From positions 1-28,551 of IMG/VR virus record IMGVR_UViG_3300006641_000129: a stretch of 28,551 nt of DNA. One strand, written 5' to 3'. The translations under genes were made by a program, and so were the position numbers. A model generated the notes under the pieces. It searched no databases. It was not told the origin of the DNA and saw only the letters and a program-made list of their open reading frames with translations. Shown one piece after another: positions 21,219-28,551 of the stretch. Numbering within the stretch: position 1 is the first letter of the stretch; every line of letters begins with the position of its first letter. Source of the stretch: a virus.

Positions 21219-21313
21219 AGTGGTGCATCCTCAAAGTTGTCAGGGTTGAACTTGGGCACTTTTGTGCCCTTGTCGAGTGGGTTGGGGAATGGGGGAAAGG
21301 GCCAGTTAGTCAT
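21215..21313 (-). CDS. 32-aa proline-rich micro-protein
   Basis: MTNWPFPPFPNPLDKGTKVP followed by KFNPDNFEDAPL. Both ends are fixed by ATGA overlaps, with the 86-aa gene upstream (21310-21313) and the 68-aa gene downstream (21215-21218). A perfect small hairpin, GGGCAC-TTTT-GTGCCC (21254-21269), lies inside. The Pro/Trp/Phe composition suggests an extended binding peptide. Similar MTNWPF openings occur in other phage early regions as far as I recall. Confidence 0.65.
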   Translation of the reverse strand: MTNWPFPPFPNPLDKGTKVPKFNPDNFEDAPL

Positions 21314-21570
21314 GCTTCACCTCTTGCTCGGATTGCGTCAGCGACATCATTTAATGTTGATTGAAATCCCAACAACATCCGTTCAAACCAAACTTTGCCG
21401 TGTTCTTCACACACCCTTGCACACGCCTCACGTTCTTTGGCTGCTACCAGTTTGGCAAAGGCTTCAAGAAGTTCGGGCATAGCATATGCAAAAGTATTCT
21501 TCTGTATAGATTCATCCCATATTGCTAAACCAGCCTGTCTAGCCATTTCAATTATTTCATCTTGTGTCAT
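21310..21570 (-). CDS. Early protein, paralogue A of a tandem pair
   Basis: 86 aa. The N-terminus MTQDEIIEMARQAG, a central LEAFAKLVAAKEREACARVC and the C-terminus AIRARGEA are shared with the next gene upstream (21567-21791), so the two arose by duplication. The middle part differs. The layout resembles many small hypothetical proteins of Burkholderiales phages with an AKEREACAxxC helix. Start overlaps the partner (ATGA, 21567-21570) and stop overlaps the 32-aa gene. Function unknown. Confidence 0.78.
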   Translation of the reverse strand: MTQDEIIEMARQAGLAIWDESIQKNTFAYAMPELLEAFAKLVAAKEREACARVCEEHGKVWFERMLLGFQSTLNDVADAIRARGEA

Positions 21571-21791
21571 GCTTCACCTCTTGCTCGGATAACGCCTGCA
21601 TAGTACAAGCCTGCCAAGTCTTTGCCGTCTGTTTCACAAGCAATAGCACACGCCTCACGCTCTTTAGCTATCGCTTCGCTGGCTACCAGTTTGGCAAAGG
21701 CCACAAAGAACGGAATCCAAGGTTCTGGCAAAGCATGACTCTTAAAATTTCCCGCCTCTCTAGCCATCTCAATGATTTCATCTTGTGTCAT
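21567..21791 (-). CDS. Early protein, paralogue B of a tandem pair
   Basis: 74 aa. It shares MTQDEIIEMAREAG, FAKLVA, AKEREACAIAC and the ending VIRARGEA with its neighbour at 21310-21570. Even the DNA around both stop codons matches (CATGCTTCACCTCTTGCTCGG), which indicates a recent or constrained duplication. The unique segment NFKSHALPEPWIPFF replaces a longer stretch in the partner. Stop and start overlap the neighbours by ATGA. Confidence 0.78.
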   Translation of the reverse strand: MTQDEIIEMAREAGNFKSHALPEPWIPFFVAFAKLVASEAIAKEREACAIACETDGKDLAGLYYAGVIRARGEA

Positions 21792-22084: not shown

Positions 22085-22345
22085 TCAATCGGTTTTTGTT
22101 TTCGATGGGCGACCACGCTTGCCCGCCACCTTGGGTTCACTGGGCGCGGGCAAAAAAGAATCGTGAAGCGTTGGGTTCATGGCTTCGACCATGCCGAGCA
22201 CCTCGAGCAGTCGGGCGACAGCGGCGGTCGGTTTGCGGTCACCCGCCGCCCATTTGCGAAAAGTGAACACGGGCACGCCCAAATAAGCGGCGGCTTGGGA
22301 TTCGTCCAAATTGAGGCGGGTTTGTAGGGCTTTGAATGGGTTCAT
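22085..22345 (-). CDS. HTH (Cro/XRE-like) DNA-binding protein with AT-hook-like tail
   Basis: 86 aa. Residues about 4-50 are a helix-turn-helix: LQTRLNLDESQAAAYLGVPV then FTFRKWAAGDRKPTAAVARL, the usual recognition-helix layout of XRE/Cro proteins. The C-terminal KVAGKRGRPSKTKTD contains an RGRP AT-hook-like core. A small regulator of early or late transcription is likely; it is a candidate binder of the palindromes at 24211-24836, which is inference only. A terminator separates it from the upstream leftward genes; no ribosome site is obvious. Confidence 0.78.
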   Translation of the reverse strand: MNPFKALQTRLNLDESQAAAYLGVPVFTFRKWAAGDRKPTAAVARLLEVLGMVEAMNPTLHDSFLPAPSEPKVAGKRGRPSKTKTD

Positions 22346-23731: not shown

Positions 23732-23755
23732 TTACGGTTACGGGTTACGGGTTAC
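23732..23755. repeat. Short tandem repeat TTACGGG
   Basis: TTACGG, TTACGGG, TTACGGG and TTAC follow one another. The block covers the stop codon of the 47-aa gene and sits just upstream of the ribosome site of the DUF7222-like gene. A GTTACAGGTTAC-like pair also lies upstream of the first gene of this operon (24193-24204). Confidence 0.7.
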
Positions 23756-23895
23756 AAGGAAAAGGCAAACACGGTCAAAAGGTACAGGGCGACAGCGGCA
23801 ACGGCTGCGCCGCCAATAACCGACCACTCCGAAGGCTCGGCGGGTGTCACTGGGTCGGGTGTGTAGTTTTCGCGGAATTTATCGAATGAGTTCAT
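23752..23895 (-). CDS. 47-aa single-pass membrane protein
   Basis: MNSFDKFRENYTPDPVTPAE, then PSEWSVIGGAAVAAVALYLL and TVFAFSL. A polar N-terminal half with several Pro residues is followed by one transmembrane helix at about residues 26-46 reaching the C-terminus. The start overlaps the upstream stop (ATGA, 23892-23895). It is likely an inner-membrane early protein; function unknown. Confidence 0.72.
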   Translation of the reverse strand: MNSFDKFRENYTPDPVTPAEPSEWSVIGGAAVAAVALYLLTVFAFSL

Positions 23896-24176
23896 GCTGT
23901 CACCCCTTCCACGGTGGCGGCAACTTCGCCCAGCTGTCGCACGATGTCGTAATAGTCACCATACGACATGTCGACCTCGTTGGGAAATGTGTACCAATTG
24001 TTGTCATAGGCTTCCAAGATGCCAGCGGGTGTGAACTCCACGCCAGCAATCAACATCACATCAATGTGACGATCAATGTCCATCAGCACAATGTGACCGT
24101 TCTTAAGTTGAGTTGCCGCAATTCGTTGACCATTGGCTGTGTAGGTTCTGCCAGTGTTGAATTTGATTGTTTCCAT
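23892..24176 (-). CDS. First gene of the leftward early operon, conserved small protein
   Basis: 94 aa. METIKFNTGRTYTANGQRIA, then LKNGHIVLMDIDRHIDVMLI and a C-terminal part with MSYGDYYDI. The FNTGRTYTANGQRIAA opening is a beta-rich pattern I have seen in small phage early proteins. AAAGGA lies 8-9 bp before the ATG. It is the promoter-proximal gene of the operon, 55-60 bp downstream of a TTGACA promoter covered by palindromes, so it should be among the first expressed. Function unknown. Confidence 0.8.
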   Translation of the reverse strand: METIKFNTGRTYTANGQRIAATQLKNGHIVLMDIDRHIDVMLIAGVEFTPAGILEAYDNNWYTFPNEVDMSYGDYYDIVRQLGEVAATVEGVTA

Positions 24177-24230
24177 TTGTCTATCCTTTACTGTTACAGG
24201 TTACTGTCTCACCCCCGTGGGTGAACCACT

Positions 24231-24258
24231 AGGTTATCACAGATTCTGCGAATGTCAA
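24231..24258 (-). promoter_or_regulatory. Leftward early promoter with overlapping operator palindromes
   Basis: On the minus strand a perfect TTGACA (24258-24253) is followed by a 16-bp spacer and TAACCT (24236-24231). The -10 overlaps the palindrome AACCACTAGGTT (24224-24235), the -35 abuts ACCCACTGGGT (24258-24268), and ACCCCCGTGGGT (24211-24222) lies just downstream of the expected start point. Three copies over one promoter suggest repression by the palindrome-binding protein. Confidence 0.6.
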
Positions 24259-24587
24259 CCCACTGGGTGCATTTATTTTCTAGGTACTTTCCCTACCCGC
24301 TGGGTATCAGTTAACCCAATGTGTCGCGGATTCCTCAAGGGTGTGACAACTGTGACTGAAACGGGGGGTAAGGATTCTGGAAAACTGAAAAGTTTGTGCC
24401 TTTTTAAAAAGTCGTAAATTTTTGGTCTCCTGCGCGGAGACACTTTGTCACACCTGCCCCCAAAAACCCACGGGGTCGGGGTTTCTTTTGACCCAGCGGG
24501 GTGAAATCCCCCGATTCCGTGACCCACTGGGTCAGTTTGCCCCCGTTTAATTGGTTTCCGCTGGGTTTCCTTTTCCCACTGGGTTTT

Positions 24588-24611
24588 TGTCACTCTGTCA
24601 CATTGTCACAC
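24588..24611 (+). repeat. Three tandem octamers TGTCACNN
   Basis: TGTCACTC, TGTCACAT and TGTCACAC lie head to tail at 24588, 24596 and 24604. Further TGTCACA-type copies occur at 24446-24454 and, inverted, at 24341-24348. They resemble short iterons or an operator for a helically phased protein. Confidence 0.6.
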
Positions 24612-24881
24612 CCTGACGCAATGACCCAGCGGGTCACCAATGACCCACGGGGTCGGGCGTCTGCGCTGCCGTGGTGCTCGGTGCAAAGCGCCCAGCGCCG
24701 CCGGATTTACCCGCGATTCTGGAAACTGGATTCAGGGCACATGGGGTGGGTGTGGTCCCGCGACCCTCCGGTCCCGGCGACGGCGGTATCGCGAACAATT
24801 TTTTATTTTTTCAAATTAACCCGAGACCCAGTGGGTTCACATAACTCACATGATTCCTTTTCCCCACGCAGCACAAACATG

Positions 24882-24890
24882 TGGTAGATT
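24882..24890 (+). promoter_or_regulatory. Extended -10 promoter of the late/packaging operon
   Basis: TGGTAGATT fits the TGN-TANNNT extended -10 pattern; no -35 is found at the proper distance. The start point would be near 24896-24898, only a few bases before the terS ATG at 24900, so the transcript would be almost leaderless. No ribosome site precedes the ATG. Confidence 0.45.
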
Positions 24891-24899
24891 CACAGCACT

Positions 24900-25469
24900 A
24901 TGGAAACAAGGCAACCCTCATCCGTAGGCGCAGTTGTCACACCCGAACAATCCGTCAGCAACGGCGACAACCTCGAATTGCCCCAGTGGCTCTCTGTGCC
25001 TGACCCAAAACCCATCGCACCGTCCCGTGTGATGCGTGACCTCGTCCATTCCCAATACGCCAGCATCTTTGAGCGAGTCATCGAGCAGATTTACCGTGGG
25101 CGCTCACTTGCCTCACTCCTCGAAGACGATCATCGTGAAATCAGCTACGAGGATTTCCTGCGCTGGGTCAAGCGTGACCCGATGCGCCATGAGCGGTTCA
25201 AAGAAGCGCAGGAGTCGCGGACCGAGTTCATCGCTGGTGAGATTCTCGAGATTGCCGATGCCGAGGACTCGATAGAAGATGTGCAGAGGAGTCGTCTAAA
25301 GATCGACACTCGCAAGTGGCTCATGGGTGCTTGGAACAGGAAACGCTACGGCGAGACCAAGACACTTGAGATGGCCGGATCGATCTCGATCACTGGTGCG
25401 CTGGCTGCGGCCCGTGAGCGCATGATCGAGGGTGAGGTGATTGACGTGACACCGAAGGAGATTGAATGA
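24900..25469 (+). CDS. terS: Terminase small subunit
   Basis: 189 aa (P22 gp3 is 162 aa). After a Pro-rich N-terminus of about 40 residues comes a DNA-binding type helical region (VIEQIYRGRSLASLLEDDHR, EISYEDFLRWVKRDPMRHER), then AQESRTEFIAGEILEIADAE and the TerS signature LKIDTRKWLMGAWNRKRYGE. It would recognise the packaging site and hand DNA to TerL. The start has no ribosome site and lies right after an extended -10 element. The preceding repeat region may contain the packaging start. The stop overlaps the 22-aa micro-gene (ATGA, 25466-25469). Confidence 0.86.
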   Translation: METRQPSSVGAVVTPEQSVSNGDNLELPQWLSVPDPKPIAPSRVMRDLVHSQYASIFERVIEQIYRGRSLASLLEDDHREISYEDFLRWVKRDPMRHERFKEAQESRTEFIAGEILEIADAEDSIEDVQRSRLKIDTRKWLMGAWNRKRYGETKTLEMAGSISITGALAAARERMIEGEVIDVTPKEIE

Positions 25470-27226: not shown

Positions 27227-27468
27227 CTCTCAAGGCCAACCAAAACTGCGTCATCATCGAGCCGGATGTTGAAAAACACGAACTGTTTATCATCCCGCCC
27301 GGCGACAAGTGTGAAACTGGCATCGTTGTTGCCATTGGTCCAAATTGCACAGATGTTGTGGTTGGCGACCACGTATACTTTGGCGTGGGTCAGGAATTTA
27401 AGTATGAAGGCAAAGAATACGTCGTCATGCGTGAACCCCACATATTAGGAGTTTTGGAACATGGCTGA
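27223..27468 (+). CDS. GroES-like co-chaperonin
   Basis: 81 aa (GroES 97, T4 gp31 111). VIIEPD (10-15) starts the barrel; HELFIIPP (19-26) takes the place of the mobile loop and carries the hydrophobic FII where GroES has IVL; ETGIVVAIGP (31-40), VGDHVYFGVG (47-56) and YEGKEYVVMREPHILGVL complete the Cpn10 pattern. It probably works with host GroEL to fold the coat or other virion proteins, as T4 gp31 does. It lies between terL and portal in the head-assembly part of the operon. The start overlaps by ATGA, and the stop overlaps the portal start by 8 bp. Confidence 0.85.
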   Translation: MTLKANQNCVIIEPDVEKHELFIIPPGDKCETGIVVAIGPNCTDVVVGDHVYFGVGQEFKYEGKEYVVMREPHILGVLEHG

Positions 27469-28551
27469 TCCAACAGGAATCACGGCTGCGGCAGCAGTCG
27501 CAGTAGGCGGCTCAACCAAGGACAAAAGCAACGCTAGTGTTCTTGCCACCGCACGCACACGACTTGACATGGCAATCTCGGCTTTGTCCGAGTCCCGCGA
27601 AGACGAACTCGACGATCTGCGGTTCTACGCAGCATCCCCAGACAACCAATGGCAGTGGCCCGCCGACGTGCTGGCGACCCGTGGCGCGGTGCAGGGTCAA
27701 ACGATCAACGCCCGCCCTTGTCTGACCATCAACAAGCTGCCGCAACACGTTCACCAAGTCACAAACGAGCAGCGCCAGAACCGCCCACAGCCCAAAGTCA
27801 TTCCTGCTGACGATGCAGCCGATGAAGAAGTGGCAGAGGTCTACAACGGCGTGATTCGTCACATCGAATACATCTCCGATGCCGATGTGGCCTATGACAC
27901 AGCGTGCGAAAACCAAGTGGCATACGGTGAAGGTTACGTGCGTATCCTGACCGAGTATTGCGACGAGAAATCATTCGACCAAGACATCAAGATTGGCCGC
28001 ATCCGCAACAGTTTCAGCGTCTACATGGACCCGCTGATCCAAGACCCTTGCGGTGCAGATGCCGAGTGGTGCTTTATCACCGAAGATTTGCCCCGTTCCG
28101 AGTACGAGCGCCTGTATCCCAACGCTGTGCCCATCACCACCTTGCAAACGTTGGGTGTCGGTGATCAAGAAATCTCCCAATGGCTCAATGAAGACACTGT
28201 TCGCATTGCCGAATACTTCTACAAAGAGTACATTAATGAAAAGCTGAACCTGTACCCCGGCAACGTGACCGCATTTGAAGGCACGCCCGAGGACAAGATG
28301 TTGAAATTGCAGTTTGGTGCACCCGTAAAAAGCCGTAAATCTGAGCGTTGCAAGGTCAAATGGCTCAAAATCAACGGTTACGAGGTGCTTGAAGAAGCCG
28401 ACTGGGCTGGTGTCCATATCCCCGTGATTCGCTGCGTTGGCAACGAATTTGAGGTCGATGGCCGCTTGTATGTGTCCGGTTTGGTCCGAAACGCCAAAGA
28501 TGCCCAGCGCATGTACAACTACTGGGTGTCGCAAGAAGCTGAAATGCTGGC
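27461..28551 (+). CDS. Portal protein, P22 gp1-like (3' end beyond window)
   Basis: The first 363 codons are present and the frame is open at the window edge; P22 gp1 is 725 aa. ATG at 27461 has AGGAG 9 bp upstream. After an Ala-rich start the sequence reads LATARTRLDMAISALSESRE, DDLRFYAASPDNQWQWP, NARPCLTINKLPQHVHQVTN and EQRQNRPQPKVIP, the P22-type portal signature, then AYGEGYVRILTEY and SFSVYMDPLIQDP. It would form the dodecameric DNA channel that binds TerL and later the gp4-like adaptor at 750-1487. Scaffold and coat genes should follow outside the window. Confidence 0.9.
   Translation, partial: MADPTGITAAAAVAVGGSTKDKSNASVLATARTRLDMAISALSESREDELDDLRFYAASPDNQWQWPADVLATRGAVQGQTINARPCLTINKLPQHVHQVTNEQRQNRPQPKVIPADDAADEEVAEVYNGVIRHIEYISDADVAYDTACENQVAYGEGYVRILTEYCDEKSFDQDIKIGRIRNSFSVYMDPLIQDPCGADAEWCFITEDLPRSEYERLYPNAVPITTLQTLGVGDQEISQWLNEDTVRIAEYFYKEYINEKLNLYPGNVTAFEGTPEDKMLKLQFGAPVKSRKSERCKVKWLKINGYEVLEEADWAGVHIPVIRCVGNEFEVDGRLYVSGLVRNAKDAQRMYNYWVSQEAEML

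Follow-up and report, generated by a model that had tools for sequence, protein, structure and literature searches.

The early protein p4 of Bacillus phage phi29, together with p6, works through dimeric inverted-repeat sites between divergent early and late promoters, repressing A2b and A2c and activating A3; p4 has a unique fold, and its sites follow the pattern 5'-CTTTTT-15 bp-AAAATG (PMC3100819). MqsA reads the palindrome AACCT-N3-AGGTT (PMC4894380), and the small phage helix-turn-helix (HTH) dimers Aca2 and Aca10 bind inverted repeats in the promoter of their own operon (PMC8434428, PMC9410881). In addition, Corndog-type 17-bp dyad repeats occur in 34 copies over the whole genome in Cluster O mycobacteriophages, which carry no integrase (PMC4351075).

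We compared these systems with a palindrome array in a window of 28,551 nucleotides, an incomplete IMG/VR record of a P22-like podophage. As in phi29, the proposed regulator gene lies in the early operon, and dyad sites lie over the early promoter and upstream of the late promoter. In contrast to p4, the candidate regulator is a small XRE/MqsA-like HTH protein, its putative sites are 6-12 copies of an 11-bp palindrome located in the early promoter spacer, and no p6-like partner was identified here. The likeness therefore appears to be a functional analogy with no sign of homology, the XRE-type HTH fold being set apart from that of p4 by the description of the latter in PMC3100819. MqsA contains the closest solved HTH by sequence and shares the palindrome architecture (A)ACC[T/C]-N3-[A/G]GGT(T), whereas its zinc-binding N-terminal domain and toxin partner were not seen here. 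Similarly to the Aca autorepressors, of which Aca2 and Aca10 are weak structural neighbours, the HTH protein has a putative operator in its own operon promoter; no acr gene was evident here, however, and Aca proteins are not known to govern a late promoter through phased sites. The array resembles the Corndog-type repeats in its many copies of a phage-specific palindrome and in the absence of an integrase, but all copies here are in one promoter region. Among known late activators, none with exactly this arrangement was found.

The comparison names a regulator, a DNA code and two target promoters, all of them proposed, for a large family of aquatic podophages that are uncultured and about whose gene timing nothing was known before. 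The relatives also provide a natural experiment, since the terS-proximal site has moved many times, by whole turns of the helix, and changes in the recognition helix go together with changes in the motif. This yields testable predictions on how about 90 residues may suffice for both repression and activation and on the co-evolution of regulator and sites.

Palindrome array upstream of terS

The record is a fragment when compared with relatives of about 37 kb. It encodes an Sf6-type TerS (PF20901), TerL, a DUF3987 primase-helicase, a SNF2 helicase and an Enc34-type ssDNA-binding protein, and its early genes are small; no portal, scaffold or capsid gene was found in the window (ends 1-53 and 27468-28551). 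The full gene order was supplied by the complete relative DSL-LC05 (OR003940, 37.6 kb), in which the early genes point in one direction and the terS, terL, portal, capsid and tail genes in the other. In the window, the leftward early run ends at the gene start at 24176, and the palindromes occupy the gap between this position and terS (Table 1).

The original prediction described about a dozen near-palindromes within about 625 bp of a gene-free stretch, and both parts were borne out. The interval 24177-24899 is without a credible ORF and contains nine strict ACCC-N3/4-GGGT palindromes, compared with 0.23 expected and a maximum of three in 5000 order-2 Markov simulations; weaker copies bring the number to about 12, spanning 24211-24836 (about 626 bp). 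The strict density was 12.4/kb inside the interval and near zero (0.036/kb, one match) in the rest of the window, whereas an equal density elsewhere had been named as refuting the prediction. When sites were scored against ACCCANTGGGT, a match of at least 9/10 was found at nine sites inside and one outside, and a match of at least 8/10 at 12 inside and 18 outside. The core is 11 bp, ACCC-N3-GGGT, and 314 unique sites from relatives gave the consensus ACCCASTGGGT. The extended form TGACCCA-N-TGGGTCA, also predicted, was present as a flank preference, but the preference was only mild. The look of the sites agrees with the suggestion that their symmetric halves serve a dimeric protein. A DNA search of the array among phage records and an Rfam search returned no match.

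We assessed conservation in 80 loci obtained by a TerS scan, 70 of which were examined first for the array, and in about 240 further loci fetched with the HTH profile and TerL profiles. The array lay directly upstream of terS in 70/70 relatives, with 3-11 palindromes within 900 bp, and palindromes were almost absent elsewhere in the same relatives. It was present in 14 of 16 near-complete or long records, whereas a reversed-pattern control gave 0-2 matches. The other refuting outcome named in the prediction, no conservation of the sites in close relatives, did not occur either: the sites persisted in relatives whose TerS was as little as about 42% identical, with diverged sequence between them. 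In four loci with TerS identity of 45-51%, one palindrome is within the terS reading frame (L110 2124, L108 160, L111 2768 and L112 1406).

Many operator-like copies together with a repressor-like HTH could also represent stoperator-like silencing sites of a temperate repressor, as originally suggested. However, the sites here are symmetric and clustered in one intergenic region, unlike the asymmetric, transcription-oriented stoperators of Cluster A mycobacteriophages (PMC4351075); no integrase or resolvase was found in the 15 records searched, and DSL-LC05 is predicted to be virulent (PMC10611076). We therefore consider this explanation highly improbable.

Table 1. Features of the locus and their positions in the window
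Feature	Coordinates	Strand	Remarks
XRE/MqsA-like HTH protein, 86 aa, leftward early operon	22085..22345	-	C-terminal KRGRP AT-hook-like tail; proposed palindrome reader (co-occurrence, helix/motif covariation)
Palindrome ACCCCCGTGGGT (N4)	24211..24222	.	Just downstream of early start site
Early leftward promoter, -10 TAACCT	24231-24236	-	Upstream TG; predicted start near 24224
Early leftward promoter, -35 hexamer TTGACA	24253..24258	-	From sequence
Palindrome ACCCACTGGGT	24258..24268	.	Adjoins early -35; centre -39
Palindrome ACCCGCTGGGT	24295..24305	.	Putative second early operator, 37 bp upstream; centre -76
Weak copy ACCCAATGTGT	24314..24324	.	9/10
Conserved central block	24339..24460	.	No perfect palindromes; bounded by inverted GGTGTGACAA (24340-24349) / TTGTCACACC (24445-24454)
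Palindrome ACCCACGGGGT	24466..24476	.	Middle cluster
Palindrome ACCCAGCGGGGT (N4)	24491..24502	.	Middle cluster
Palindrome ACCCACTGGGT	24522..24532	.	Middle cluster
Palindrome TCCCACTGGGT	24574..24584	.	Middle cluster; 9/10
Palindrome ACCCAGCGGGT	24624..24634	.	Middle cluster
Palindrome ACCCACGGGGT	24643..24653	.	Middle cluster
Strongly conserved block	24740..24825	.	GC-rich, then A/T-tract, before last palindrome; by eye also in motif-swapped relatives
Last palindrome ACCCAGTGGGT	24826..24836	.	Centre 69 bp before terS ATG; predicted phased late-promoter site
Predicted terS promoter, extended -10 (TG-G-TAGATT)	24885..24890	+	Poor -35; 9 nt before ATG
terS, Sf6-type small terminase (PF20901)	24900..25469	+	First late gene

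Candidate reader of the palindromes

The HTH protein and TerS had been named as the local candidate binders. The HTH gene lies within the leftward early run on the minus strand and occupies the same place in relatives. It was found in 14/14 array-bearing records tested and was absent from both array-less records. Among loci with enough flank, 123 had TerS, the HTH gene and the array, and 71 had none of the three; four had TerS and the HTH gene with a reduced array, two had TerS and the array without the HTH gene, and one had TerS only. In both loci with an array and no HTH gene (L013 and L272), the contig ends inside the early operon.

Changes in the recognition helix, GVPVFTLRKW in its standard form, accompanied changes in the motif. 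The helix was GVKITTWRNW in L279, which carries AACCCATTG 13 times, and GVSVFTLRHW in L277, which carries CACCCAG-type sites; in L294 (GVPVPTLRKW) and L288 (GVPMPTIRKW), where P replaces F/Y, the sites were of the ACCCANTGG type. In L278, the 37.4 kb record contained no HTH gene and the motif was AAACATC, although its TerS was 63% identical with a near-identical DNA-binding region. As the motif was replaced or altered with HTH loss or helix change while TerS was conserved, these sequence comparisons indicate that the motif is tracking the HTH protein, not TerS. MW202483 cannot separate the two, because both are replaced there. Two observations count against the model: L268 has a standard helix yet a degraded array, and L277 and L278 are without a terS-proximal site. 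Taken with the co-occurrence, the covariation of helix and motif supports the HTH candidate; we infer that this protein binds the palindromes and, in all likelihood, reads them.

We rejected TerS as the reader because of L278. The same locus bears on the proposal that the palindromes are pac sites, recognized by TerS at the start of packaging. Their position directly upstream of terS in every relative would suit such a role; however, the repeat in L278 is unrelated at a conserved TerS, and conversely the motif is unchanged in relatives in which TerS identity falls to 42-50%. A packaging function of the palindromes is therefore extremely improbable.

The best PDB sequence match of the HTH protein was the MqsA HTH (3fmy, E 0.0035), and the cut-offs of the MqsA family were not reached (PF15731, 20.2 bits vs 30; TIGR03830, 18.8 vs 61.8). 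The predicted structure was a compact five-helix XRE fold (pLDDT 88.8) with a low-confidence basic tail. A structure search returned XRE-type neighbours only, all with E >0.1, and the match to MqsA was weak (E 0.81, TM 0.52). HTH homologues in reference genomes amounted to one short match, which therefore provides no host or prophage evidence. A weak resemblance to VC1465/XafT-type Xer-recombination activation factors was also seen in the family (10/16 members, below the cut-off).

Sites at the early and terS promoters

The leftward promoter of relatives is near-consensus, with the arrangement TTGACA-[spacer holding ACCCANTGGGT]-TATAAT. Among 43 promoter-like matches scoring at least 10, a site was present at -45..+10 in 35, compared with 13.3 expected; in 31 of these it was at -17..-19, all leftward. 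The sites were in the -35/-10 spacer or overlapped or abutted the -35 hexamer; in the window, a site abuts the -35, with more copies upstream and just past the start (Table 1). Coverage of the leftward promoter was thus as predicted. The spacing of the first two operators clustered near 37, 48 and 59 bp, that is, in one-turn steps. In L279, the altered motif of that phage is in the early promoter spacer, and in L278, the unrelated motif is just past the early start. A generic promoter and terminator scan of the window missed the promoters because the window copies are degenerate. The early-side sites are very probably operators, and their classical geometry suggests that binding would repress the early promoter.

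At the other end of the array, the distance from the centre of the last palindrome to the terS ATG was 48-50 bp in 19 loci, 57-60 bp in 33 and 67-69 bp in 21, with none between. Phasing was strong near 10.2 bp (R = 0.89); 22 dissimilar spacers gave R = 0.875, and none of 20000 uniform draws was as high. The distance classes changed at least 29 times on the TerS tree, although exchange of this region by recombination between phages could mean fewer independent events. Distances of 49, 60 and 68 bp, counted by hand, were kept with altered motifs in L288, L286 and L279, respectively. The predicted extended -10 is only 9-10 nt ahead of a conserved CACTATG. A Shine-Dalgarno sequence before terS was absent in 74/80 relatives, and none was found in the window; terS seems near-leaderless (24885-24902). 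The late -35 averaged 3.4-3.8/6, compared with 5.9/6 at operator-bearing early promoters, the early set having been selected for high scores.

When a site keeps to one helix face ahead of a weak promoter, it usually marks an activator that touches polymerase. Because the phased site at terS sits in this way, we infer activation rather than repression there, and a polymerase-contacting repressor would also fit.

We propose that the array supplies the cis-acting part of an autoregulated early-to-late transcription switch in a family of virulent P22-like podophages. The strong leftward early promoter would be fired first, by host sigma70-type RNA polymerase, and the early operon would make the HTH protein, whose accumulating dimers would bind to palindromes of the form ACCCASTGGGT. 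Dimers at the leftward end would occupy the -35/-10 region and silence the early operon, the HTH gene itself included. At the rightward end, the weak terS promoter with its extended -10 would have a dimer bound just upstream, in one of three positions one turn apart; this dimer would contact polymerase and activate terS and, probably, the late genes that follow. The middle cluster would probably aid loading or bridging or act as a reservoir. This proposal draws on site conservation, the link to the HTH gene, the operator geometry at the early promoter and the helical phasing at terS. Since the sites are on the early promoter and at one-helix-turn distances from the terS promoter, we consider the switch the most likely reading and its full dual action, early repression with activation of terS and late genes, reasonably probable.

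Alternatively, the HTH protein may be a repressor only, which blocks both the early and the terS promoters until replication multiplies the 6-12 sites per genome, titrates the protein and frees the late genes as a copy-number timer. Classical operators at the early promoter are consistent with this, the many extra sites could serve as a sponge, and phasing at terS could likewise come from a repressor in contact with polymerase. However, the terS-proximal site lies ahead of the core promoter instead of covering it, one-turn steps are typical of activators, and the terS -35 is weak. We regard repression only as unlikely and retain the early-to-late switch.

Middle sites, conserved blocks and the slot in the wider family

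The statement that most copies lie far from promoters held for the middle copies, which are without a promoter, but not for the first two or three, which are putative early-promoter operators, or for the last, which is phased to the terS promoter. The middle cluster comprises 4-7 copies between the two conserved blocks (Table 1). These sites were neither phased nor at recognised promoters, and the spacing analysis found no phasing among middle pairs. They may serve cooperative loading, DNA bridging or titration.

The inverted repeat that bounds the central block showed compensatory changes across relatives. The block may be an origin, a cruciform or an RNA element, and its folding energy was not unusual. 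As a folded RNA it gave z values of -1.1 and +0.1 on the two strands, and covariation was limited to the outer inverted repeat; the RNA reading is therefore unsupported. The block at 24740-24825 may be a pac site, a DNA unwinding element or part of a promoter.

A covarying inverted repeat in a conserved central block and a conserved A/T tract between the sites would suit a replication origin, with the palindromes as initiator or iteron sites, as was originally suggested. However, the sites are palindromes rather than regularly spaced direct repeats, the middle ones are irregularly spaced and unphased, the outer ones are fixed to promoter geometry, and composition shows no clear skew switch. 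Iterons are thus a very unlikely explanation of the array; an origin could still reside in the conserved blocks, in which case the palindromes would be regulatory.

MW202483 and L183 hold a different palindrome, GTTTA-N2-TAAAC, in 6-7 copies in the same slot, and other TerL relatives have weaker candidate repeats there, which suggests that the slot rather than the motif is conserved in the wider family. In L087, the GTTTA-N2-TAAAC array in this slot is at 28220-28579, and a DnaA-domain-IV-like protein is encoded at 31423-31719. In a more elaborate, and quite unlikely, scheme, the switch would be coupled to copy number: the phased outer sites would set early repression and late activation, the conserved, unphased middle cluster would act as a built-in titrator linked to the number of replicated genomes, and the slot would be an exchangeable regulatory cassette with different repeats (GTTTANNTAAAC, AAACATC, AACCCATTG) for different regulators.

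A second repeat, TTGTCAC(A), occurs at 24340-24349, 24445-24454, 24587, 24603 and 24934. In relatives, its density was 1.88 per kb in the 800 bp upstream of terS and 0.16 per kb elsewhere, a difference of about 12-fold; it is also present in relatives with swapped palindromes and is the main repeat in L281. Among the early genes, two similar tandem small genes at 21310-21791 both begin with MTQDEIIEMAR, an apparent duplication. In addition, a repeated leader, GTAACCCGTAACCGTAAGG-like and kept in relatives, precedes early genes at 23733-23757 and 24187-24204 on the minus strand.
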